The position numbers and the translations under genes were made by a program. Shown piece after piece: positions 15,938 through 35,455 of a stretch of 58,160 bases of DNA. The stretch's first letter is position 1. Each line of letters starts with the position of its first letter. Location: positions 1-58,160 of the forward strand of contig DYJA01000035.1 in assembly GCA_020723345.1 (NCBI GenBank). The letters are read 5' to 3'. The notes beneath the pieces were generated by a model. It did not search any database. It was given only the letters and a program-made list of their open reading frames with translations, and had not been told where the DNA came from. The DNA comes from Candidatus Aquidulcis sp. (GTDB lineage Bacteria > Chloroflexota > Anaerolineae > UBA4142).

Positions 15938-17119
15938 ATGACAATCGTACTTCTCATTCGCCACGCGAGCAACGATTACGTGAAAGAAGGGCGGCTCGCC
16001 GGATTATTGCCGGGCGTTCACCTCAACGCGCAAGGTCAGCGCGAAGCGGACGCGCTCGCGCGCCGGCTCGACCATTTGTCGCTGCACGCGATCTATGCGA
16101 GTCCGCTCGACCGGACGCGCGAGACCGCGCAGGCAATCGCGCAGTGCCAGAAACTCGACGTGCAGGTTTGCGACGGTTTGATCGAAGTGGATGTCGGGGA
16201 GTGGACCGGCAAGTTGATCAAAGACTTGGAAGCGACGGACGCGTGGAAGCAGTTGCGCGAGCAACCCGCCACCTTCCAATTCCCGGGCGGCGACAGCGTC
16301 GCGCGAGTGCAGACGCGGATCGTCGCGGCGATTGACGCCATCGTCGCCGCGCATCCGGAGCAAGTCGTCGCCGTCGTTTCGCACGCCGACCCGATTAAAT
16401 TCGCGCTCGCGCATTATCTTGGCATGGATTTGAATCAGTTCAATCGTCTCGTGATCGACCCGGCGTCGGCGAGCGTGTTGATGTTCGGCGAGCGCGGCGC
16501 GACGTTGTTTCGTTCGAACGATACCGGCGCGCTGCCGGCGTTCAAGCCGGTGCAGAAGAAGGACGATCGGCGAAAGGAAGAAAACAAGATGCCTGAAGCG
16601 AATATTCTTTACGATCTCAATCCCGTCTCGCACATTACGGTGGGCGCGATCGGCGAACCGGGCAAGCGCACGTTTTTCATTCAAGGTCAACAAGGATCGA
16701 GCATCGTGACGCTGGTTTCGGAGAAGGAACAGATCGTCGCGTTGTCGCGCGGCATTGACGAGATCGTGGAGCGTCTGGGCGTCGGCGGTCAACCGGTTTC
16801 GATGTCTGAGGAAGAGATGGAATTGGCGGAGCCGGTGGATCCGATCTTTCGCATCGGTCAGTTGGGTTTGGGGTACGATCAAGCGAGCAAACTGCTCGTG
16901 TTGGTGGCGTACGAATTGCCGGAGGAAGAAAACCCGGCGACGATCAACGTCGTGCGCTTTTGGGCGACTACCGAGCAGATGCGAAAACTCGCGCGGCACG
17001 CAGCAGTGATCGTCGCCGCCGGTCGTCCGCTGTGTGTGTTGTGCGGCAGACCGATTGACCCCGAAGGACATTTCTGCCCCAAGCGCAACGGGCACGGCGA
17101 GAAAGCGACGCTAGCGTGA
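15938..17119 (+). CDS. Histidine phosphatase fused to DUF3090
   Basis: Two parts are joined in one 393-residue chain. Residues 1-~200 are a histidine phosphatase (phosphoglycerate-mutase-like): R8-H9 in LLIRHASND, SPLDRTRETAQ, and the second catalytic His in VVSHADPIK. Residues from about 218 (MPEANILYDLNPVSHITVGA) form DUF3090, ending with a zinc-finger-like CVLCGRPIDPEGHFCPKRNGH-type segment. As I recall, actinobacteria encode these as separate adjacent genes (MSMEG_4193 and DUF3090 families) next to an SCO1664 gene, as here. An internal ATG at 16589 behind GGAAG could also yield DUF3090 alone. The pathway is unknown. Confidence 0.85.
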   Translation: MTIVLLIRHASNDYVKEGRLAGLLPGVHLNAQGQREADALARRLDHLSLHAIYASPLDRTRETAQAIAQCQKLDVQVCDGLIEVDVGEWTGKLIKDLEATDAWKQLREQPATFQFPGGDSVARVQTRIVAAIDAIVAAHPEQVVAVVSHADPIKFALAHYLGMDLNQFNRLVIDPASASVLMFGERGATLFRSNDTGALPAFKPVQKKDDRRKEENKMPEANILYDLNPVSHITVGAIGEPGKRTFFIQGQQGSSIVTLVSEKEQIVALSRGIDEIVERLGVGGQPVSMSEEEMELAEPVDPIFRIGQLGLGYDQASKLLVLVAYELPEEENPATINVVRFWATTEQMRKLARHAAVIVAAGRPLCVLCGRPIDPEGHFCPKRNGHGEKATLA

Positions 17120-19183: not shown

Positions 19184-22100
19184 ATGGTCGCTCTCACCAG
19201 TTCTGCCGCGCCCCAACTTGATCCCTTGTCTTTTTTTCGTTTGAAGCCGATTCGCGTCGCGCGCGTTTCGGAGATCAGCGAAACGACTGCCGCCGCGCCC
19301 GTTCCCAGAGAAGCGCGCGTCGATTTCCACATCGGCAATCCGCTGCAAGACGCGCGGCTCTCTTCCGCGTTTTTGCGAATCGCGCTGGGTATCGACATTC
19401 ATCAGGAGAATTTGCGCGACAGCGAACCCGACGCCATCCTCGAATTTCTCCACTGGTCGCCCGCCGACAAGCCCACACTCGAATTTCTGATTCGCGCGAT
19501 CCAAAAAAGTTCGCCGTATTCGCCGCGCGGCGGATATTTGCGGACTGCGCCGCACGCGCTCGTCAAAGCGTTTCGCGCGTGGCTCGAGCATCAGCAAGAG
19601 CCGCTGCAGTACGACGCGGGCGAGCAATCGGGCAGGCGCGAGATCATCCTCGCCTCGGGCGGCATTCCCGAAGCGCTGCGCGTGCTGCTGCTCGCGTTGT
19701 CGGCGTATTTGGAAATCACGCCCGCGCGCATTTTGTGTTATCGCTGCGAACTTGGATCGCCGTTGAAAGGGATCTCGAATCTTTTATTTGACGATCTGGA
19801 TTCCGATGAACGAATCGCGCGCGAACAAGTCGAACAATTTCTGACGCAGCGACCCGAAACGCCGACATTTTTGCTGATCGGCGATGCGCTCGGCGAAGAA
19901 ACGCGGCGCAAATTGCGATTGTTGAGCGTGGGGCGACCGCTCTTTTTCATCGAGGCGAACGACGCGCCGAATCATCTTTCGCTTGCGCGTGAAGCGAAAC
20001 TGGAACAGCGCGTCATTCGCTTGCTTAGTCCCGCGATTTTCGCGCCGCGCTTGCAATCGCTCTCCACCGTGTTCGTCATCGGCAACGCCGATTTTCTCAA
20101 CGTGATCGAGAACGTGCATTTCAATTTGAAGGGAACGCCGTCCGCCTCCGAGGTCGAGTTTCTGACTTTTCTGCTCGATCAAAATCTCGCCGATCTCAAG
20201 ACCGACACGCCCGCGCATGTGCCGCAGGTCAAACCCTCATTCGATGGTCTGGGTTTAGGCATCGCGTCGGAATCGGTTTTGCCGCAACTGGCTGAGCGCG
20301 TGGCAAGTCGGCTCGAACGGTTGTTGAACGATCACGCGGAAACGCTGGCGCAAGCGCTGACGACGTTGGAAGAAAAAACGCGCGCGCTGAATCGCCGCGT
20401 CGAAAACTTTTGGCAGGATGGCGCGGCGGATGAGTTTTCAACCGTCGAAGCGAAAGAACTGCTTGATCGGCTCGTCCAAAATCTCCACGACCCAGGTTGG
20501 CGTCAATCGTTCGAACGCAGTTTCCTCAACGCGTTTGTCAAACATCAACCGCAGTACCGTCTCGACGCGTGTCAGGTTGCCAGCGGTTCGTCCCGCACTG
20601 CGCTCGGCATCCTGGGTTTTCATTGCGGCATCCGCGAGGTCGTGATCCCCGATCTAAGTTGGTCGTACGAACAATGCTTTCCCGTCGTTCACGCCGTGCC
20701 GCTCACGTCGTCGCTCGAACTCGACGTGAACGCGATCATCGAAAAAATCGAAGAACTGTGCCGCTACGATCCGTCCTGGCTCGAACGCGGTGCGGTCGCG
20801 CTCAACAATCCGCACAACGGCACCGGTCGGATTTTCGACGAAGCCGCGATGCGCCAACTGATCGCGTATTGCCTGCAGCACAACTTGTACATCATCGACG
20901 ACCTGGCTTATCAAAATGTCGCGCCGGTCGACGCGCTGCCCGAAATCAAAACGGTGCGCCAACACGCGTCCGAGCTCGTCCGCCTGGGCGTCGTCGACGC
21001 GGAACAAGCCGAGCGCGTGATCACTGTTCACTCAATGTCCAAGACCGATTGTCTCGCGGGCGCGCGCATGGCAGTCGTCGAAATTCGCGATCGTGAACTC
21101 GCGCAGCGCTTTCGCGAATTGAATGCCGCGATTCAACCGAACCTCACCGCGATTTTCATTTGCTATTTGTTCTATCGCAACACAACCGAATCGGCGCGCG
21201 CGTACTGGCATCTGCGTAACGCGATTTTCCGCGAACGCACGCGAGCATTACTTAGCGCCGTCGAAAATTTACCGCCCGAACGCAATCCGTTTGGCTTGAC
21301 GATCATTCCGCCGGTCGGCAGCATGTACCCGTTGTTGCGGATCGAACGCTTGCCGGCGGGCTTGTCATTGGACTGGCTCGCGTCCTCGCTCGCGCGGCGT
21401 GGAATCGGATTGCTGCCGCTCGCGACGTTTGCGCGCACCGAAAAAGGGTACGAGACCGGCAGGACGACTTTTCGTTTGACATTGGGCGGCGTGGACGGCG
21501 CGGAAATTCTGTTGACGAAAACGCGCCGGTTGCTGATCGACTTGAACCGCCTCATCTCGGAAGAGCAAGCGCACTACAACCGCAAGCAACTGCAATTTCG
21601 AAATCCGCCCAGCGCGAGCCATCGCGCGGACGAACTCGCGCGTTCGTGGGACGGAATCGCCAAACAGATTTTGCGCGATTGCCAGAACAATCGCAACGCG
21701 ACGCCCGCGCCGCTTGATAGTCAATCGTTGCATCGCGAATTTCTGCAACACCACGTTCCAGCGCGATTGGATATTTTTCGCACGCGCTTGCTCGACCGCG
21801 CGCTGATCAGCGATGAGTCGATCCGTCGCGCGCTAAACGACAACGGCGATTGGCTTGCCGCGCGCTTGGATCGCGAATTTATGAAGGACGCGCTGCCGCG
21901 GCGGCAAGAATTGTTCCGCTTGCGCTCGCACGATCGCACGGTGCATCCGACGCAGATGTACTCGCTGCAAGCGGAACTCGCGCTCGATGCCATCGTCAAC
22001 GCATTGATCGCGCGCGCGCGAATCGAACCGGCGCAAATCGAACGCGCGACGCAGGAATTGTGGCAGGAATATCTGGGGCGCAATGTCGCGATCACATCGC

Positions 22101-24808
22101 AAGACGAAGCGGACGAACTCTTGCTCGATCTCGCCGCGCAGATCGCGAGCGAAGAACACGCCGAACTCTTTGCCGACGCGGCGTTGTCGCCGTTCTTGTC
22201 GTTCTGGAGCGATTGGGACGGCAGCAACCGACCATCGGGGCAGGGGCATCGCTTGGCGGCTGCGGTCGTGATGGAAAATGTTCGGCGCATGAGTCGCATT
22301 CTCAATTTGCTGCGCCACGCTGATCCGAAGGTTGAGGTAGACGCGGATCTGTTGTCCGAACTCGCCGGGCTGCCGCAGCGCAATCAGCGTTTCACCAAGT
22401 TGCACAACGACATTACGCAACTGACGCATCAATTGGAACAACGCTATCGCGGCATTTTGCCGTTTGCGGTCGATGCGACATCGTTGCAGCGATTGGCGAC
22501 GCGCTTGCGTTTGCGTCGCGATCCCGCGCGTATTTTGTTGCAGCACAACGATCGCACCGAGCGCAGAATGCTCGAAATGCGCCGCGAGCGCCGTGCGATG
22601 CTCGAATATTATTTCGCGCTGAACAAAAAATTGCGGAAACAACTCCACGCGTTGATTCCTGCGCTGCAAGCGAATCGCGCGGCGGAACCGTTGCTGCGCG
22701 AGGTGGTGAACTATCGCGATATTTTGCAGCGCACGGTGATCACGCCGCGCATTCATCAAGGACTGATCACCGCGCGCGATTCGTTCGCCATCGATACGAC
22801 GGTCTACAACCTGCACGAGATCAACGCGATCGCGGGCGAGTACGGCAACCCAGGCATCGCGCTCGGCATCCAACTCAGTTTGTCGACGAAACCCGAAGCG
22901 CTGATCGCGTTGGATCGCAAAATGCGAATTCAGCGCGAGCAAACGCGCCGCGATCATCCGTCAGCCGAACTCCCTTCGATTTGGCTGATTCCGTTGTTCG
23001 AAGATATTGAATCGATCAAAAATATCCGCGCGTACCTCGATCGCGTTTGGGATCACGCGACGCAAAGTCGCCAGACCGCGCAATCGCCGCAGAATCGTTT
23101 TGCCGAAATCATCGCCGAAGTTTTTATCGCAGGTTCGGATTTGAGCCAACAAGTCAGCCAGGCGAATGCCGCGTTTCTGTTTCTGCAAGCCAAGTCCGAA
23201 ACGCAAGCGTGGCTGGCGGAACATCGCTTGGCGGAAGTCGTGCGCGTGAAAATGGGGTGCGGCGAGCCGATGCAGCGACAGGGCGGCTATTATTCGCGCG
23301 TCGCCGGGCGCGCCGCCTTTCCAAATTCCGATGACAGTCGGCGGCGATTTGCGAGTTGTCTGCCCGCCGACGCGCGCAAAAGTACCGCGTACGCGGTCAC
23401 GCCGTTGCAAGGAATTTTTCTCGGCGGCGATTTGCGAACGTTCCAAAGTAATTTGTCCGAGCAGTTGCGAACACTGCCCGCGCGCGAGTTGGTCGATCTG
23501 CTCTATCACGTGCGCGAATCGCAAAAGAAACATCGCCGCGATTTGATTCGCGCCGCCGAGACGATTGCTGAAAGTCGGTTGAGCGCGCCGCGCTGGAGTA
23601 TGCAAGAGCTGGAGCGCATCACCGTCGGAACGAGCGAGCCGCTCTATGAAGAATTTTTGAAAGAACTGACCGACAATTTTCGCCACATTCTTTACGGGCG
23701 CGAAGAGGATGTCGTCGGCATTCACATCATTTCGTACTTCATCGGGCGATCCATTCCGCAACTGCGCGACCGTCCCACGTCGCGTCGCACGGCGCGCACA
23801 GGTACGGAACGCGGTCAACAAATTCTCGCGAGCATCGCCGAAATAATTCCGCTCGCTAAACAGGGAAGTTTGTTGCGCGCGATCTCACACAATCAAGCGC
23901 AAACGGTCGTCCTGGGAATCAATCAGTTGACGACGGGCTTGTTCCGCGCGCTCGAACGTTTCGCGCAAAAAACTTTTGCCGAAGCCGAACGCGAACGCAT
24001 GATCGCGGAACGTTTGCTGCCGCGCCTGCCGGTGTACGAAATTCTCAGCACGCTGCGAATTTATCAGGACTGGCAAGGCGAATTTCTGCGACGCGTCGAG
24101 TCCGCGTTCCCGGCGGGCAATTCCGCGTTCGTCGCGCTGCGCGAGGACAGCGACGCGATGCAGCGCTATTTGCCGTTGTTCCAACAAGAATTGCTGCGGC
24201 GACACGGCGTCAACGTCCAAGATTTTTTCACCCAGGGCGTTTTTGTTCCGAATCTTTTGCCGACGCTGCGCCCCGACCTCGCGGTGCTGTTGCAAAAAAA
24301 TATTTCCAACACCGATGTCGATGTCATGCTGGAAAGTGTTTCAGGACGAATTGCGGACGACTGGCGCGCGCAGGTCGCCGAATTGCTCGAATTGCCGCAG
24401 CAGATTCGCCGCTGGCGTTCGATCATCTGGGACGTGATGGGCGATTCGATTTATCAGCGTGCGCAAAGTTTTACCGAACTTGCCGCCGCGCTGTACGCGT
24501 TTTCGTTGACGCGATCCTTTGGCGCGCCGCCCGCGCTCGGTCGCCCGACAAAACCGCCGCCGACGCTGACCGGCTTTTTCCGCACCGCGCGCGCCGACGA
24601 CGAAATGCGCCGGTTCCTGCTCGGCGCGGTCGAATACCTGAGTTCGTTCGCGGAAGGCAACCTCGAAGTGCCGGTCAGCATCATCCGCGCGATGAACGAC
24701 GTCGAACGCATCGCGCAAATCGAAGAAAGCGCGCTCGCGCCGGAGAAGCAAGACGTGATTCGCTGCTGCGTTTTGCAGATCGCGCGCTTGGCGGGCGAGA
24801 ATGGATAG
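19184..24808 (+). CDS. Giant fusion: degenerate aminotransferase + aminotransferase + PEP-carboxylase-like domain
   Basis: A single 1,874-residue chain without signal peptide. Residues ~45-350 look like a class I aminotransferase (YSPRGGYLRTAPHALVKAF, IILASGGIPEALRVLLLALS) but lack the PLP lysine. Residues ~430-790 form an intact-looking one: NNPHNGTG (541-548), DDLAY (572-576), Schiff-base K620 in SMSKTDCLAGAR, and a carboxylate-binding Arg in GRTTFRLTLG. The last ~1,000 residues resemble PEP carboxylase: RTVHPTQ (H921), PLFEDIESI (E1273), AGSDLSQQ (D1319) and GCGEPMQRQGG (R1365). The lysine normally following the GSD motif is missing. If active, it would turn PEP and bicarbonate into oxaloacetate and then aspartate. 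Host-like codon use suggests a native gene. Confidence 0.7.
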   Translation: MVALTSSAAPQLDPLSFFRLKPIRVARVSEISETTAAAPVPREARVDFHIGNPLQDARLSSAFLRIALGIDIHQENLRDSEPDAILEFLHWSPADKPTLEFLIRAIQKSSPYSPRGGYLRTAPHALVKAFRAWLEHQQEPLQYDAGEQSGRREIILASGGIPEALRVLLLALSAYLEITPARILCYRCELGSPLKGISNLLFDDLDSDERIAREQVEQFLTQRPETPTFLLIGDALGEETRRKLRLLSVGRPLFFIEANDAPNHLSLAREAKLEQRVIRLLSPAIFAPRLQSLSTVFVIGNADFLNVIENVHFNLKGTPSASEVEFLTFLLDQNLADLKTDTPAHVPQVKPSFDGLGLGIASESVLPQLAERVASRLERLLNDHAETLAQALTTLEEKTRALNRRVENFWQDGAADEFSTVEAKELLDRLVQNLHDPGWRQSFERSFLNAFVKHQPQYRLDACQVASGSSRTALGILGFHCGIREVVIPDLSWSYEQCFPVVHAVPLTSSLELDVNAIIEKIEELCRYDPSWLERGAVALNNPHNGTGRIFDEAAMRQLIAYCLQHNLYIIDDLAYQNVAPVDALPEIKTVRQHASELVRLGVVDAEQAERVITVHSMSKTDCLAGARMAVVEIRDRELAQRFRELNAAIQPNLTAIFICYLFYRNTTESARAYWHLRNAIFRERTRALLSAVENLPPERNPFGLTIIPPVGSMYPLLRIERLPAGLSLDWLASSLARRGIGLLPLATFARTEKGYETGRTTFRLTLGGVDGAEILLTKTRRLLIDLNRLISEEQAHYNRKQLQFRNPPSASHRADELARSWDGIAKQILRDCQNNRNATPAPLDSQSLHREFLQHHVPARLDIFRTRLLDRALISDESIRRALNDNGDWLAARLDREFMKDALPRRQELFRLRSHDRTVHPTQMYSLQAELALDAIVNALIARARIEPAQIERATQELWQEYLGRNVAITSQDEADELLLDLAAQIASEEHAELFADAALSPFLSFWSDWDGSNRPSGQGHRLAAAVVMENVRRMSRILNLLRHADPKVEVDADLLSELAGLPQRNQRFTKLHNDITQLTHQLEQRYRGILPFAVDATSLQRLATRLRLRRDPARILLQHNDRTERRMLEMRRERRAMLEYYFALNKKLRKQLHALIPALQANRAAEPLLREVVNYRDILQRTVITPRIHQGLITARDSFAIDTTVYNLHEINAIAGEYGNPGIALGIQLSLSTKPEALIALDRKMRIQREQTRRDHPSAELPSIWLIPLFEDIESIKNIRAYLDRVWDHATQSRQTAQSPQNRFAEIIAEVFIAGSDLSQQVSQANAAFLFLQAKSETQAWLAEHRLAEVVRVKMGCGEPMQRQGGYYSRVAGRAAFPNSDDSRRRFASCLPADARKSTAYAVTPLQGIFLGGDLRTFQSNLSEQLRTLPARELVDLLYHVRESQKKHRRDLIRAAETIAESRLSAPRWSMQELERITVGTSEPLYEEFLKELTDNFRHILYGREEDVVGIHIISYFIGRSIPQLRDRPTSRRTARTGTERGQQILASIAEIIPLAKQGSLLRAISHNQAQTVVLGINQLTTGLFRALERFAQKTFAEAERERMIAERLLPRLPVYEILSTLRIYQDWQGEFLRRVESAFPAGNSAFVALREDSDAMQRYLPLFQQELLRRHGVNVQDFFTQGVFVPNLLPTLRPDLAVLLQKNISNTDVDVMLESVSGRIADDWRAQVAELLELPQQIRRWRSIIWDVMGDSIYQRAQSFTELAAALYAFSLTRSFGAPPALGRPTKPPPTLTGFFRTARADDEMRRFLLGAVEYLSSFAEGNLEVPVSIIRAMNDVERIAQIEESALAPEKQDVIRCCVLQIARLAGENG

Positions 24809-24836: not shown

Positions 24837-25673
24837 GTGAAAGACAGTACCGCATTACCGCATTTAGAAATGCTTCCTGTTGACGCTTTGGTGTTGCACG
24901 AAGAATGTGACCCGCGTCGCGTCGAAAAACTATGCCAACGCATTCGCGACGACGCGCACTTGAAACATCCGCCGATTGTCGCCGCGCTGCCGGAGATGGA
25001 TCGCTTCGTCGTGTTGGACGGCGCGAATCGTACGATGTCGTTGCGGGCTTTGGGCATTCGACACGTCGTCGCGCAAGTGGTCAGTTACGGCGATCCCGGC
25101 GTCGAGTTGGGCACGTGGCATCACGTCGTCGCGGGCATGCGGCTCGACGATTTCGAAACGGGCTTGACCCAGGTTGACCGGCTCAAATTGCAGGATTGTA
25201 CGTTGGACGCGGCGCGCACGGCGATTGCGACCGGCGACGCGGCGGCGTACATCGTTTGCGCGAGCGGTGTCCGCAAAGTGGTTAGCGAAAATGGATCGCG
25301 CGCGCGCGACATTCATTTGCTCAACGATCTCGTCGGAGTCTATAAGGGACGCGCCGACATTTTTCGCGCGTCGAACGACATTTGGGAAATCCAATCGCCG
25401 TTCTATCCCAACATCACCGCGCTGATCGTCTTTCCGCCGTACTCGCCCGCTGACATTATGATGCTGGCGCGCCGTGGCGAAAAAGTGCCGACGGGCGTGA
25501 CGCGCCACGTGATTCCGAATCGCGCGCTGTACATCAACATTCCGCTGGAGGTCCTCGGCGCGGCTTGGACGTTGGAGCGCAAGCGCGAATGGCTAAAGCA
25601 GTGGCTGATGGAACAGATGGCGGCGAACGCGATCCGATACTACGCAGAATCGACCTTCTTGTTTGGGCAATGA
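24837..25673 (+). CDS. ParB-fold protein, likely free-serine kinase type (SerK/SbnI-like)
   Basis: The 278-residue protein has a ParB/sulfiredoxin-like N-terminal domain: LHEECDPRRVEKLCQRI (residues 20-36), then VVLDGANR (58-65). The order acidic residue, LKHPPIV, DGxxR matches free-serine kinases SerK (archaeal cysteine synthesis) and SbnI (siderophore precursor). Those carry DGHHR, so N64 replaces a His. Length fits those kinases better than ParB, and no DNA-binding helix-turn-helix is obvious. It follows the aminotransferase/PEPC-like gene after 28 bases. GTG 24837 is chosen as start behind AAGGAG. O-phosphoserine formation is inference; it could instead be a nucleotide-binding regulator. 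Confidence 0.65.
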   Translation: MKDSTALPHLEMLPVDALVLHEECDPRRVEKLCQRIRDDAHLKHPPIVAALPEMDRFVVLDGANRTMSLRALGIRHVVAQVVSYGDPGVELGTWHHVVAGMRLDDFETGLTQVDRLKLQDCTLDAARTAIATGDAAAYIVCASGVRKVVSENGSRARDIHLLNDLVGVYKGRADIFRASNDIWEIQSPFYPNITALIVFPPYSPADIMMLARRGEKVPTGVTRHVIPNRALYINIPLEVLGAAWTLERKREWLKQWLMEQMAANAIRYYAESTFLFGQ

Positions 25674-25739: not shown

Positions 25740-25771
25740 GCGTCATCGTGGACGCGAAGAGGAGGAGCACC

Positions 25772-26485
25772 ATGCGATTGGCTTTCCTACTCGTAGTAAT
25801 TCTGGCATGTGTGGTGACGAGTTGCGAACAACCGCCGGAGTACTTGTCGGCAACGCAGATTAACGCGACCGTCCAAGCGGCTGTCGCGACCGCGCAGGCG
25901 GCGATGCGGACGCCGAGCATTACGCCGACTGTGACGCCCACCGCTCCACCAACCGCTACCGGCACGCGTACGCCGGTTCCGACGCCAACGGCAACTTCAA
26001 CTCAAACTTTGACGCCAACTCCCACGCCGACTCTGACGCGCACGCTAACCTTGACGCTGACGCCAACGCTGACGATTACGCCGACGGCTACACTGATTCC
26101 GCCCAAAGTCAATACGACGCTTCTGGGGTGTGAAATGGGAATCGATATTGCTCACGGAATGGGCGATGTCACGAACGCTTTCGTGCGCTTCCGCAACCTT
26201 GGCGATACCGAACTCACCAACATCTGCTTCGCGCTGACGCTGGACAACGAAGGGCGCAGTCATCCCGACAAAGTCCGCTGCATCCCATCTCTGCGATCAC
26301 ATTATGAGATCACGCTGAAACTCACGGTTGACACCGACAGCCGCGCGCCAACCTCTGCCGCCGTGGCAGTCATGATGCCTCAGGGCGTAATCGACAAGGT
26401 GTCTGCCCCAGGGTGTCGATTGTTGAGCAGTTTAGAACTCAGTCAGATCAATCTTATTTTGAATGTGCCCAGGGTTATCCAGTAA
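25772..26485 (+). CDS. Surface lipoprotein with Thr/Pro stalk
   Basis: A 237-residue protein starting at 25772 behind GGAGGAG. A lipoprotein signal ends VVTSC near residue 18. A stalk of about 65 residues made almost wholly of T, P, S, A and L (for example TPTPTPTLTRTLTLTLTPTL) follows. The C-terminal ~110-residue domain (LLGCEMGIDIAHGMGDVTNA) contains three Cys and has the character of a beta-sandwich similar to FxLYD/DUF-type adhesion domains; no specific family is recognised. It stands just upstream of a sensor kinase. It is probably outer-face anchored. Confidence 0.75.
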   Translation: MRLAFLLVVILACVVTSCEQPPEYLSATQINATVQAAVATAQAAMRTPSITPTVTPTAPPTATGTRTPVPTPTATSTQTLTPTPTPTLTRTLTLTLTPTLTITPTATLIPPKVNTTLLGCEMGIDIAHGMGDVTNAFVRFRNLGDTELTNICFALTLDNEGRSHPDKVRCIPSLRSHYEITLKLTVDTDSRAPTSAAVAVMMPQGVIDKVSAPGCRLLSSLELSQINLILNVPRVIQ

Positions 26486-30338: not shown

Positions 30339-30367
30339 TTGCGAAATGCGTCTATCTGTGCTAAAAT
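30339..30367 (+). promoter_or_regulatory. Promoter of tRNA-Gln
   Basis: TTGCGA (30339-30344), 17 bases, TAAAAT (30362-30367), ending 12 bases before the tRNA. Confidence 0.7.
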
Positions 30368-30379
30368 GCAAATCATCGG

Positions 30380-30450
30380 TGGGGCGTGGTGCAGTGGTAG
30401 CACACCAGACTTTGGATCTGTGGACCGAGGTTCGAATCCTTGCGCCCCAG
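30380..30450 (+). tRNA. tRNA-Gln (anticodon UUG)
   Basis: Acceptor TGGGGCG (30380-30386) pairs with CGCCCCA (30443-30449), with discriminator G. The anticodon stem CCAGA/TCTGT closes the loop CTTTGGA, giving anticodon TTG. The T-arm contains TTCGAAT. The 3' CCA is not encoded. Confidence 0.93.
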
Positions 30451-30526
30451 CAGTCAATTGCAGATTGCAGATTGCAGATTGCAGATTGGAAAAATCCGCA
30501 ATCTCAAATCTGAAATCTGCAATTTT
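30451..30526. repeat. Mirrored-word repeat (CAGATTG type)
   Basis: CAGATTG is repeated four times head to tail (about 30462-30488). It is then mirrored by GCAATCTCAAATC and TGAAATCTGCAATT. It lies directly between tRNA-Gln and the glycosyltransferase gene. Confidence 0.75.
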
Positions 30527-30536
30527 GTTCTCACGC

Positions 30537-32993
30537 ATGTTACGATTTTTCGCGCGCCCCAATTTCATACTTGCCGCGATCCTTGCACTCGCCGCGGTCT
30601 TGCGGGTTTATCGCCTGGACGAAATTCCCCCCGGTTTCCAATTCGATCAGGCGTATTACGTCTTTGACGCGATTTTTCTCCTGCGCGGCGATTTCTTCAT
30701 TTTCTTTCGCGACCCAGGTCGCAGCGAGCCGCTCTTCCAATATCTGCTGATGCCATTCGTCGCGCTCTTCGGCGGCGATACGCCGTTGGGTCCCAAAGTC
30801 ACCGCCAGCATCATCGGCGTCGCAACGATTTTTCTGATCTACGGCGTCACACGCGCGCTGTTTACCCCCACCCCAGCCCTCCCCCGTTCGCAAGAACAGC
30901 GAACAAGGGAGGGTGTAGGGGCGCTCGCCGCGCTCTTCGCCGCGATTTCCTTCTGGCACATTTTCTACTGCCGCTACGGCGAGCGCATTCCGCTCACGCT
31001 CTTTTTCGCGACGCTTGCGTTTTGGTTCTTCTGGCGCGCGCTCACGCATCCTTCGACTCCGCTGCGCTCCGCTCAGGACGCATCACGCATCACGCAATAC
31101 GCTTTCACCGGCATCTTCACCGGTTTGACGCTTTACACTTATCCCTCCGGTCGCGTCGTCCCGATCGCGCTAGTACTTCTCACCGCGTACGTCGCGCTGA
31201 CCGATCGCGCGCGCGCGGCGTACTACGTCAAAGGTCTCGTTCTTGCGGGAATGATCGCGACGATTGTTTTTCTGCCGCTTGGTCTCTACTACATTCAGCA
31301 TCCGATTGATTTCGTCTCGCACACTGCCGACGTTTCGATCTTTACTCCACACGGTCAAATCAGCGACAACGCTCCACTAGAATTGGGCAAGAACGCGCTG
31401 AAAATTCTCGGAATGTTTTTTGTCGTCGGCGACGGCGGCGTGCTGCGGAATTTGCCGTACCGTCCCGTGTTCGATCCATTCGTCGGCGCGCTCTTCGTCG
31501 TCGGCGTGATCGTCTGGCTCGCGGAATTAGTTTTGCCGCAGACAACGCGCGTCAATCGCTTGCGCGCGGTTTTCCTCGCGGTATGGCTCGGACTCGCGCT
31601 CGCGCTTTCGCTCGTCAGCGACGACGCGCCGAACAACGGTCGCATCTTGATCGGACTGCCTGTCGTGATGATGTTGCCGGCGTGGGGCGCGGTCGCGATC
31701 TGGGAACGCTTGCAATTGCTCCCTGAGCGAAGTCGCAGGGTGACGCGTCGCGTCGCGGCAAGCGCGCTGAGTGCGATCATCGTGGTCAGCACTGCGCTCG
31801 TCGCGCGCGATACGCTGGTCGTTTGGGCAAACGATCCTGGGACGTACTACGCGTTCGATGTCGACAAAGTCGAGCTGTCGAAATGGATCAATCAAAACGC
31901 GCGGACGCAGCATCTTTATCTCGCGCCGGTCGTCTATCAAGTTGGGACCGTGTCGTTGCTCACGCGCAACGCGCCGTTGAAATCGTTCGATAGCCGCGAC
32001 ACAATCGTGTTGCCGAGTCGCGCGGAGGGCAAGGATGCGCTCTTTATGTTTCCACCCGAGCAGGAGAAACGCCTGCAAACGATGGCGACGCGGCTCGGCG
32101 CGCTCGGCGCGCGCGATCAAATCGCGGATGCCAATGGCGCGCCGCTGGTCGCTGGCGTCCGCGTCCCCGCGCAGAACTTGCCCAGTCCCCAATCTCCAAT
32201 CTCCCATCTTACTCTCGGCGGCGATTTCATCAAGCCGCAAAAAACGACGCGCGCGATCTGGAACGATTCGCTCGCGCTCGTCGGTTATTCGATTGACGCG
32301 GCAGACGCGGCGAAGCGCAATCTGGAAGTGACGCTGTTTTTCCACGCGCTCGAGCCGATGGATGCGGACTACACATTTTCGGTGAAAGCGCGCGACGCGA
32401 AAAATCGCGTGTGGGGGCAAGAGGACAAGCAAGCCGGGAGCAACAGTTATCCCACGAAACTCTGGTCAGCGGGCGATGTCGTCGTCGAAAAATTCTATCC
32501 TGGGTTGAGCGCGTGCGCGCCTGCCGGTGACTATCGCGTCACGGTCGAAGCGTACGATCCGAAGACGATGCGAGTGCTGGAAATACAGGGAACTGAAGGG
32601 AACTTGGTGGAACTCGGCGGAACGCGCGCAGAAGCAGCACCAGGGAATTTGTACGAGCATCTTGAGCCGGAACAGAAACTCGACGCGAAAATCGGCGAGC
32701 GTTTGCAACTGATCGGTTATACGCTGTCGCCGGACGAGGCGCGCGCGGGCGATGAGTTTTCGCTTTCGCTCTTTTGGCGCGGCGTCGGCGCGGGCAGCGC
32801 GGAAACGGTATCGGTGCGAATGAAAAGCGCGGCGCAAGACATCGCGCTTGTTGACGCGCCGATCAAAATTCCCGCCGACGGGCGTGGTATCTGCGCGCTG
32901 TATGATTTGCGCGTGCCGCCGAATTTCCCCGCAGGCGCGGTATCGTTGCTGGTCAACGGTTTCAAGATCGGTGATTTGAAAGTGATCAAGTAA
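30537..32993 (+). CDS. Membrane glycosyltransferase (PMT/ArnT, GT-C type), copy A
   Basis: An 818-residue polytopic protein. After the first membrane span comes RVYRLDEIPPGFQFDQAYY with D37, the expected catalytic acid of the GT-C/PMT superfamily. Some ten further spans follow to about residue 430. The outer C-terminal half includes LEVTLFFHALEPMDADYTFS and is a beta-rich domain. It should transfer a sugar from a lipid carrier on the outer face of the membrane. Three or four short segments are translations of repeats (residues ~112-133, ~171-186, ~394-401, ~548-560). It is followed by a paralogue, copy B. The true start is after the tRNA and repeat; no good SD is visible. Confidence 0.82.
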   Translation: MLRFFARPNFILAAILALAAVLRVYRLDEIPPGFQFDQAYYVFDAIFLLRGDFFIFFRDPGRSEPLFQYLLMPFVALFGGDTPLGPKVTASIIGVATIFLIYGVTRALFTPTPALPRSQEQRTREGVGALAALFAAISFWHIFYCRYGERIPLTLFFATLAFWFFWRALTHPSTPLRSAQDASRITQYAFTGIFTGLTLYTYPSGRVVPIALVLLTAYVALTDRARAAYYVKGLVLAGMIATIVFLPLGLYYIQHPIDFVSHTADVSIFTPHGQISDNAPLELGKNALKILGMFFVVGDGGVLRNLPYRPVFDPFVGALFVVGVIVWLAELVLPQTTRVNRLRAVFLAVWLGLALALSLVSDDAPNNGRILIGLPVVMMLPAWGAVAIWERLQLLPERSRRVTRRVAASALSAIIVVSTALVARDTLVVWANDPGTYYAFDVDKVELSKWINQNARTQHLYLAPVVYQVGTVSLLTRNAPLKSFDSRDTIVLPSRAEGKDALFMFPPEQEKRLQTMATRLGALGARDQIADANGAPLVAGVRVPAQNLPSPQSPISHLTLGGDFIKPQKTTRAIWNDSLALVGYSIDAADAAKRNLEVTLFFHALEPMDADYTFSVKARDAKNRVWGQEDKQAGSNSYPTKLWSAGDVVVEKFYPGLSACAPAGDYRVTVEAYDPKTMRVLEIQGTEGNLVELGGTRAEAAPGNLYEHLEPEQKLDAKIGERLQLIGYTLSPDEARAGDEFSLSLFWRGVGAGSAETVSVRMKSAAQDIALVDAPIKIPADGRGICALYDLRVPPNFPAGAVSLLVNGFKIGDLKVIK
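30869..30924. repeat. In-frame repeat inside glycosyltransferase A
   Basis: CCCCCACCCCAGCCCTCCCC and GTTCG are mirrored by CGAAC and AAGGGAGGGTGTAGGGG. The element translates as TPTPALPRSQEQRTREGVG right after the third membrane region. The paralogue has a similar element at the same protein position. Confidence 0.75.
31048..31095. repeat. In-frame repeat inside glycosyltransferase A (CTTCGACTCCGC type)
   Basis: CCTTCGACTCCGCTGCGCTC, a palindrome-prone word, followed by ACGCATCACGCATCACGC, translates as STPLRSAQDASRITQ. Copy B has no such segment at the aligned place. A related word, CCCTGAGCGAAGTCGCAGGG, occurs at 31722-31741 in the same gene. Confidence 0.6.
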
Positions 32994-33031
32994 TTTCGCC
33001 ATTTGTCATTTGCGCATTTGGCATTTCCAAC

Positions 33032-35455
33032 ATGTCTCATCCGCGTATCTCCAAACAAACTATACTTCTCATCGCGATCATCGCGCTCGGCGCGTTCTTG
33101 CGTTTCTATCGCATCAACGAGGTGCCGCCGGGTTTGCGCTTTGACGAAGCGTTCAACCTGATGGACATTCTCGCGTTGCTGCAAGGACAATTCGCGATTT
33201 TCTTTCCCGCGAATAACGGGCGTGAGCCGCTCTTCAACTATCTCTCCATCGTTGCGACGACGCTCTTCGGCGCGCAGCCGATTGCCTTGCGCGTCACCGC
33301 CGCGCTCATCGGCGCCGCGACGATCCTGTTAGTGTACGGTTTCGCGCGCGCGCTCTTCACCCCCTCCCCTGTCAGCGACGGGGGAGGGCAGGGGTGGGGG
33401 TCTCCCTCCCCTGCGGAGCGGGGGAGGGTTGGGGTGGGGGTGCTTGCTGCGTTCTTCATCGCGATTTCGGTGTGGCACATTTACTACAGTCGCTACGGTC
33501 TGCGCGTCATTCTCGCGCTCGCGTTGACGATTCTGACATTGTGGTGGTTTTGGAATGGCTTGCAACGAAGACGCACGCGCGATTTTGTTCTCGCAGGAAT
33601 TTTTACCGCGCTCACCGCGGGCACGTATCTCAGCGGGCGATTGCTGCCGCTTGTTCTGATCGTGCTGACGATTGCCGCGCTCGCGCTCGACCGCAAGAAC
33701 GCGCGCGCGTACATTCAAGGTCTCGTCATGACGGGAATCGTCGCGTTCATTTTGTTCATTCCGCTCGGCGCGTACTTTGTCACACACCCGGACGATTTTC
33801 TCGCGCACGGTACAAGTCTTTCGATCTTCGACGCGCGCGTGAATCACGGCGATCTCGTCGGGACGCTGACGAGCAACCTGGGCAAAATCGCGGGCATGTT
33901 TTTCGTGCGCGGCGACTTTGAAGATTTTCGCAACGTGCCAGATCGCCCCGTGTTCGATCCGATGATCGGCGCGCTCTTTGTCGTCGGCATGGGATTGCTC
34001 TTGCGCGATCTGCTCGCGCCGAAAACGGATCGCATCGTGCGTTTGCGCGCGGTTTTGATCGCGGTCGCGTTGGTCACGTTTCTCGCGTCATCCGCGCTCT
34101 CCGACGATCCGCCGAATTTTACGCGCACGTTGCCGACGCTGTCGGTGCTGACGATCTTGCCCGCGTGGGGCGCGCTGGCGATCTGGGAACGCGTGCGCGC
34201 GACGTCGGCGCGGCAAATCGCGGCGGGCGCGTTCGCCGTCGTCGCGCTCGCGAGTACCGCGCTCTCGTTCAACGATTATTTCATCACTTTTGCGAATCTA
34301 TCGTCACTGTACTACGCGTTCGACGTGCGGATGTACGACGTGGGCAATTGGATCAATCAGAACGCGCGGGCGAATCAAATCTATCTCGCGCCGTTGTGGT
34401 ATCAACAAGGGACGGTGATGTTACTCACACGCAACGCGCCCTTGAAATCATTTGAAAGTCGTGATACGATTGTGCTGCCGAGCCGCACGCAAGGCAAGGA
34501 CGCGCTGTACGCGTTTCCGCTGGAGCAAGCCGCCAAAGCCGCGAAACTCGGCGAGCGATTGGGCGCGCTCGCGACGCGCGAAATTGTTTTCGGTTCAACG
34601 GGTGAGCAACTGCTGATCGTCTATCGCGTGCGCGCGAATGATTTGCCTGACGCGCAACCTCCATTCTCAAATCTCCAGCGCGGCGGCGATTTCCTCAAAC
34701 CGCAAACTACAACGCGCGCGATGGGGGGTGATTCGTTCGAGATACTCGGTTACTCGATTGACGCGGCGGACGCGGCAAAGCGCAACCTGGAAGTGACCTT
34801 GTTTTTCCACGCGCTCAAACCGATGACCGAGGATTATACTTTTTCGGTTAAGGTGCGCGACGCAAAAGATCGCGTGTGGGGACAAGAAGACAAATGGGCG
34901 GGCAACAACAGTTACGAAACGACGCGCTGGAGCGCGGGCGATCTCATCGTCGAAAAATTTTATCCTGGGTTGAGCGCGTGTGCGCCTGCGGGCGATTATC
35001 GCGTCAGCGTTGAAGTATACAATCCGAAGACGATGCAAGTGCTAGGAATACAAGGGAACTTGGGGGAACTGCGGGAAATTCGCGCGGAGGCATCGCCGGG
35101 AAATTTGTACGAACATCTCGATCCTGATCAATCGCTTGATGTTGAGGTCGCGCCGCAAGCGCGGTTGCTGGGGTACACGCTCGCGCCAAACGAGGCGCGC
35201 GTGGGCGACGCATTTTCGCTTTCGCTGTTCTGGCGCGGCGTCGGCGATGGCAAACAGACGCGCCGCGCGGTGATTCGTCTGCGCGATGCCGCCCAGCGCG
35301 ATTTTGTCTTGTCGGAAAAAGATGTTACACTCGCAATCGATGGGCGAGGTCTCTGCGCGTTCTTCGATTTTCAAGTGCCGCGCGATGCCGCGTCAGGCGC
35401 GGCATCGATTTGGGTGAACGATACGCCAATCACTACGATAAAGGTGACCAAATGA
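33032..35455 (+). CDS. Membrane glycosyltransferase (PMT/ArnT, GT-C type), copy B
   Basis: An 807-residue paralogue of the preceding gene with the same layout. The catalytic acid is D38 in NEVPPGLRFDEAFN. Multiple membrane spans run to about residue 420. A soluble outer half carries LEVTLFFHALKPMTEDYTFS. Long stretches near the C-terminus match copy A almost word for word, showing tandem duplication. A G/P-rich insert (residues ~109-136) comes from a repeat. The stop overlaps the start of glmU (ATGA), so the two are translationally coupled. Acceptor and sugar are unknown; the link to glmU suggests cell-envelope glycans. Confidence 0.82.
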   Translation: MSHPRISKQTILLIAIIALGAFLRFYRINEVPPGLRFDEAFNLMDILALLQGQFAIFFPANNGREPLFNYLSIVATTLFGAQPIALRVTAALIGAATILLVYGFARALFTPSPVSDGGGQGWGSPSPAERGRVGVGVLAAFFIAISVWHIYYSRYGLRVILALALTILTLWWFWNGLQRRRTRDFVLAGIFTALTAGTYLSGRLLPLVLIVLTIAALALDRKNARAYIQGLVMTGIVAFILFIPLGAYFVTHPDDFLAHGTSLSIFDARVNHGDLVGTLTSNLGKIAGMFFVRGDFEDFRNVPDRPVFDPMIGALFVVGMGLLLRDLLAPKTDRIVRLRAVLIAVALVTFLASSALSDDPPNFTRTLPTLSVLTILPAWGALAIWERVRATSARQIAAGAFAVVALASTALSFNDYFITFANLSSLYYAFDVRMYDVGNWINQNARANQIYLAPLWYQQGTVMLLTRNAPLKSFESRDTIVLPSRTQGKDALYAFPLEQAAKAAKLGERLGALATREIVFGSTGEQLLIVYRVRANDLPDAQPPFSNLQRGGDFLKPQTTTRAMGGDSFEILGYSIDAADAAKRNLEVTLFFHALKPMTEDYTFSVKVRDAKDRVWGQEDKWAGNNSYETTRWSAGDLIVEKFYPGLSACAPAGDYRVSVEVYNPKTMQVLGIQGNLGELREIRAEASPGNLYEHLDPDQSLDVEVAPQARLLGYTLAPNEARVGDAFSLSLFWRGVGDGKQTRRAVIRLRDAAQRDFVLSEKDVTLAIDGRGLCAFFDFQVPRDAASGAASIWVNDTPITTIKVTK
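33358..33441. repeat. In-frame repeat inside glycosyltransferase B
   Basis: CACCCCCTCCCCTGTCAGCG-type sequence is mirrored by GGGGGAGGGCAGGGGTGGGG, and a second round follows (CTCCCTCCCCTGCGGAGCGG, then GGGGAGGGTTGGGGTGGGGG). It translates to TPSPVSDGGGQGWGSPSPAE and beyond. It sits at the same protein position as the 30869 repeat in copy A, directly after RALF. Confidence 0.75.

Follow-up and report, generated by a model that had tools for sequence, protein, structure and literature searches.

The window analysed here, a stretch of 58,160 nucleotides from Candidatus Aquidulcis sp., carries a gene whose single uninterrupted frame starts with ATG and encodes 1,874 amino acids, in which an aminotransferase is joined to a PEP carboxylase (PEPC)-like half (Table 1). 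The aminotransferase motifs NNPHNGTG (from residue 541), DDLAY (from 572) and K620 are followed by VHPTQ with H921, PLFEDIE (from 1270), AGSDLSQQ (from 1316) and GCGEPMQRQGG (from 1358), exactly where a sequence-only reading of this DNA had placed them. That reading had also called the composition host-like, in agreement with the GC3 of the fusion gene (0.69, against 0.64-0.75 for its neighbours), and it overlooked both an N-terminal pseudo-aminotransferase-like region and a constant SPFH-like partner gene. Elsewhere in the window, one frame joins a histidine phosphatase to DUF3090 (15938-17116, +), and two neighbouring large ORFs of 884 and 807 aa (30339-35455, +) have no Pfam match at 0.001.

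Table 1. Coordinates of the fusion gene, its predicted parts and the upstream partner gene in the window.
Feature	Position	Strand	Remarks
SPFH/Band_7-like partner gene, 321 aa	18212..19177	+	GTG start; ends 6 bp before fusion ATG
Fusion gene	19184..24808	+	1,874 aa; divided into the residue ranges below
Probable degenerate (Lys-less) aminotransferase-like domain, residues 1-345	19184..20218	+	Y112 invariant in SPY.PRGG
Variable helical linker, residues 346-415	20219..20428	+	least conserved, low pLDDT
Class I/II aminotransferase, residues 416-795	20429..21568	+	PF00155, hhalign, VIA
K620 codon	21041-21043	+	PLP lysine
Predicted PEP-carboxylase-fold barrel, residues 801-1430	21584..23473	+	H921, R1189, E1273, D1319, Q1322, C1359, R1365; Foldseek, VIA, hhalign
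Helical C-terminal region, residues 1431-1874	23474..24805	+	PEPC-like by visible motifs only

Full-length homologs in a single frame were found in independent genomes, namely an Anaerolineales MAG (L003), two other members of its class (L027, L028), an Acidobacteriales MAG (L004), two members of the phylum of the latter (L094, L096) and an Ignavibacteria MAG (L005); partial homologs were found at L006/L090/L091, L008, L009 and L095/L097. Because the full-length proteins, which come from Chloroflexota, Acidobacteriota and Ignavibacteria, share 50-74% identity with the window protein over nearly its whole length, the fusion represents an established architecture, and an assembly or gene-calling artefact was ruled out. 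Nearly all of the named motifs are kept across the family; Cys1359 is replaced by Ser in many members, and in L096 a clean in-frame deletion around KLGSGEPAFL has removed the MQRQGG loop, which holds the equivalent of a catalytic arginine. The gene is under purifying selection, with dN/dS of about 0.04-0.10 in the aminotransferase and 0.08 in the PEPC-like core. In genome G661 (L095 and L097), the gene is split into two frames of 211 and 1,657 aa, which reflects a frameshift or a sequencing error. A lone 37-aa piece in genome G040 (L086:11756-11866), 76% identical to the last residues of the fusion, stands without the rest of the gene and is a gene relic or a misassembly.

The partner protein has an N-terminal hydrophobic segment (mean hydropathy of 2.75 over 19 residues) and a charged, helical-looking tail. 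Band_7 matches five of seven members of this gene family, with a best value of 5e-6, and the window copy scores 17.4 bits against a cut-off of 23.6. Wherever the sequence of a homolog locus reaches upstream of the fusion (L003, L004, L005, L009, L027 and L028/L029), this gene directly precedes it, and it occurs in three of 400 sampled genomes, exactly the three that carry the fusion, from which we infer directly that the two genes form a functional unit at the membrane. No other neighbour is common to the homolog loci, and a conserved biosynthetic cluster was rejected, since the downstream genes at 24837-25673 and 25748-26485 were not found there. The former (+, 278 aa), which starts 28 bp downstream of the fusion, shows a ParB/sulfiredoxin-like motif by eye (DGANRTMSLRALG); it has no Pfam match and does not adjoin the fusion in relatives.

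The fusion is rare, being present in 3 of 400 genomes of the phylum of the window and in 4 of 396 genomes of the phylum of L004. Neither plasmids nor viral contigs gave a match, and an origin from a mobile element, plasmid or virus was rejected on that basis; a reading as a defence system was likewise dropped, as PADLOC matched neither the fusion nor the SPFH-like gene. An ordinary PEPC is encoded elsewhere in the host genome (G000:C73), which rules out the fusion as the only PEPC of the organism. Among 12 fusion-bearing genomes, PF00311 was found in five and PF14010 above its cut-off in none, although the co-occurrence with PF00311 says little, because many genomes of the phylum are without PF00311 anyway. 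Across these genomes, then, the fusion does not replace PEPC universally and duplicates it only in some.

PF00155 was the sole Pfam family above cut-off in the fusion protein (residues 451-767, 1.4e-17; 64.4 bits against a cut-off of 19.7), and when residues 400-795 were compared by hhalign with 18 aminotransferases of related genomes, the value was 1.7e-22. A model of residues 1-799 could be superposed on PLP enzymes by VIA with Z of 26-29, mostly over residues ~420-793, one superposition giving Z 28.7 over 340 residues. N545, D573, Y576, K620, R628 and R764, which we take to be equivalent to N194, D222, Y225, K258, R266 and R386 of aspartate aminotransferase, are invariant in the first alignment and nearly so in a larger one. 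Both marks of a class I/II aminotransferase, a PF00155 score above the cut-off and a PLP lysine with its Asn, Asp, Tyr and Arg partners, are therefore present, and the complete active site that had been claimed for this domain is borne out.

The N-terminal third (residues 1-345) is present and conserved in all homologs. Its conserved segments, NFHIGNP.QD, SPY.PRGG, REIILASGG and FFIE.ND.PN, resemble those of class I aminotransferases, while the position expected for the lysine holds no lysine; beta/alpha elements were modelled at residues 161-305. Against aminotransferase profiles, the match was collinear and not significant (P=0.2), and a second aminotransferase assigned by sequence profile was dropped for failing significance. 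Segments and model together make this third a probable aminotransferase-like domain that has degenerated. Since the active domain is without the first ~53 positions of PF00155, this third might supply the missing N-terminal part, together with the partner-subunit tyrosine (Y112). The linker that follows (residues 346-415) has the lowest conservation of any segment, with a dN/dS of 0.28 against L009.

For the C-terminal half, zero matches were obtained in Pfam, NCBIfam and PDB sequences, with the single sequence or the alignment, and neither the window protein nor any of the eight family members reached the cut-offs of PF00311 or PF14010. An AlphaFold2 model was built from eight sequences (mean pLDDT 57, pTM 0.49), which is best at model residues 11-560 and leaves the residues after ~1430 unplaced, at low model confidence. 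The top three Foldseek hits of this model were plant PEPC (3zge, 4.5e-6), E. coli PEPC (1fiy, 1.4e-4) and archaeal-type PEPC (3odm, 1.8e-2), each with a probability of 1.00. All of the first 23 VIA ranks were PEPCs (Z 13.7-15.6 over 247-421 residues), and the first other protein was pyruvate phosphate dikinase (Z 12.4). Many of the alignments to PEPC extend over at least 400 residues and take in helices outside the barrel; in the predicted model, the barrel and the surrounding helices of the PEPC superfamily fold are thus both found. Sequence comparison also led to PEPC, as hhalign aligned residues 1140-1400 with bacterial PEPCs, including E. coli Ppc, at an E value of 3.3e-4, and the profile-profile score of 39.3 was reached by none of 320 column or block shuffles (maximum 31.9). 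Residues 1431-1874 are conserved in the family, but nothing significant was found for them against PEPC by profile. The sequence-only reading was to fall if this half had neither a profile nor a structural match to PEPC; curated profiles indeed gave none, whereas structure and profile-profile comparison did. The predicted PEPC fold is supported by these two independent methods, and the C-terminal half is best read as a new, divergent branch of that fold.

The hhalign alignment pairs PLFED, SDLSQQ and GCGEPMQRQGG with PLFET, SDSAKD and GRGGSIGRGG of E. coli, with no gaps within the motifs, at which the modelled strands terminate. E1273 and D1319 fall on the metal ligands Glu506 and Asp543 and are invariant; R1365 falls on Arg587 and is kept except in L096. 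H921 is invariant and lies where a modelled strand of the barrel ends, as expected of a barrel active site, and is likely the counterpart of the catalytic H138, to which it comes near in a forced alignment only. Candidates for Arg396, Arg699 and Arg713 are R1189 (TPR), R1530 (DRP) and R1565 (LRAI), all invariant and located where there is no significant alignment; RDRPTSRR (R1530) looks like SRPAKRR of E. coli, and LRAI (R1565) like LRAIPW. However, the bacterial Lys546 and Arg581 have no equivalents at the aligned positions, which hold Q1322 and C1359 (or Ser), respectively. The order of motifs noted earlier is upheld by the register of the barrel core. In archaeal-type PEPCs of related genomes, the K546 position holds a hydrophobic residue or Thr (RSDPALN, RSDPATN) and the R581 position no Arg (GVGSAPFRG and similar), and such enzymes have been functionally verified as carboxylases, as cited in a review (PMC8100219). 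Loss of both residues is compatible with carboxylation, because archaeal-type PEPCs lost them too.

We propose that the fusion would act as a two-step enzyme on one chain. Its C-terminal half may use E1273 and D1319 to bind Mg2+, and H921, R1189 and R1365 to bind a phosphorylated enol similar to PEP, the most likely chemistry being conversion of PEP and bicarbonate to oxaloacetate. The oxaloacetate would be handed directly to the middle domain, presumably a working PLP aminotransferase (K620), yielding aspartate or a related amino acid; the N-terminal third, probably catalytically dead, would serve as a built-in dimer partner of the active aminotransferase, and the SPFH-like protein would be a dedicated scaffold anchoring the enzyme at the membrane. 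What the data show is a single conserved chain, the aminotransferase family with its PLP residues, the PEPC fold of the predicted model, the active-site register in the core of the barrel and the constant neighbour; PEP as substrate, carboxylation, channelling, the pseudo-dimer and membrane tethering are inferred. We give this fused, membrane-tethered two-step route a little less than an even chance. Channelling from PEP to aspartate, as first suggested for this gene, is plausible; the lack of a curated family match for the C-terminal half, its middling model, replacement of K546 and R581, the missing Arg loop of L096 and the separate PEPC of the host speak against it. A second PEPC for bulk oxaloacetate would not be needed in the host and some relatives, since an ordinary PEPC is present.

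The likeness of the C-terminal half to PEPC could in principle be mere TIM-barrel architecture, with the domain taken from another barrel family, as the silence of the curated libraries and the Z of 10-12 attained by further barrel enzymes would allow. This is very improbable, considering that three types of PEPC fill all the top ranks, with many alignments that include helices outside the barrel, and that the motif register was also obtained by an independent sequence method. Somewhat less improbable, and still unlikely, is that the PEPC-fold half no longer catalyses a reaction and serves instead, as a sensor or scaffold located at the membrane, to place the aminotransferase under the control of a metabolite. 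Its extreme divergence from every curated profile and the loop deletion of L096 would fit such a role, for which the chain would hold a precedent in its putative degenerate domain; the invariant metal-ligand and His positions, the low dN/dS of the core and the motifs remaining at the places required by a catalytic site argue against it.

More serious is the alternative that the PEPC-fold half is active with another reaction, on a different phosphorylated enol or oxoacid, by PEP hydrolysis or as an aldolase or lyase, and that the aminotransferase uses the product, with a specialised metabolite made by the two-gene unit. The replacement of K546 and R581 by conserved residues of a different kind, the rare and scattered occurrence, unlike that of a central enzyme, and the separate PEPC of the host point in this direction, as do other barrel enzymes acting on PEP or pyruvate (PPDK, malate synthase, CLYBL and SbnG), which come next after PEPC at Z 10-12. 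Yet, apart from the SPFH-like gene, there are no conserved neighbours of a biosynthetic kind, and archaeal-type PEPCs without the same two residues are verified carboxylases according to the review (PMC8100219). We consider this reading possible, at a smaller chance than carboxylation of PEP, which we continue to prefer.

PEP carboxylase is a main carbon entry point into metabolism. If the proposed reading is true, a branch of PEPC that is invisible to profiles and joined to the next enzyme would be a concrete test case for oxaloacetate channelling, and the one-to-one pairing with an SPFH-like gene would be one for the question of which proteins SPFH scaffolds carry in bacteria. These rare, giant fusions with their partner hint at an undescribed membrane-tethered assembly leading from carbon to amino acid by a putative reaction. 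No paper on such a fusion, or on PEPC paired with SPFH, was found in the open-access library searched, consistent with the earlier statement that no described enzyme of this layout is known. The layout itself, an active aminotransferase with a PEPC-like half, was strengthened by the predicted structure and the motif register. The review (PMC8100219) distinguishes only two types of PEPC that differ strongly as proteins, the bacterial/plant and the archaeal. That a third PEPC lineage, an active aminotransferase, a pseudo-enzyme partner and an SPFH scaffold together make up a membrane-bound channel from PEP to aspartate not described before is, taken as a whole, possible, at less than an even chance.

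Compared with SPFH/Band_7 proteins (flotillin, stomatin, prohibitin, HflK/C), the partner is similar in its N-terminal anchor, weak Band_7 match and helical charged tail, and differs in its one-to-one pairing with the fusion gene and in a window copy under the Pfam cut-off. The full set of PLP-binding and substrate-carboxylate residues is common to the fusion and class I/II aminotransferases (PF00155), from which its active domain differs in matching none of the first ~53 profile positions and in falling into no assigned subfamily. With bacterial/plant PEPC (PF00311; E. coli Ppc, EC 4.1.1.31), the fusion shares the predicted fold over ~400 residues, the putative equivalents of H138, E506, D543 and R587, the order and spacing of motifs and a similar chain end (NTG in E. 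coli Ppc, ENG in the fusion). It differs from this type in having no Pfam match, in the changes of K546 to Gln and R581 to Ser/Cys, and in its longer C-terminal region and joined aminotransferase. Archaeal-type PEPC (PF14010; 3odm) is a stand-alone protein of about 500 aa that has an HPD motif in place of HPT and no significant sequence match to the fusion. However, its barrel resembles the predicted one (Z 15.6, rmsd 3.1 over 247 residues), both have PLFED and G-x-G-x-x-x-x-R motifs, and both are without counterparts of Lys546 and Arg581.
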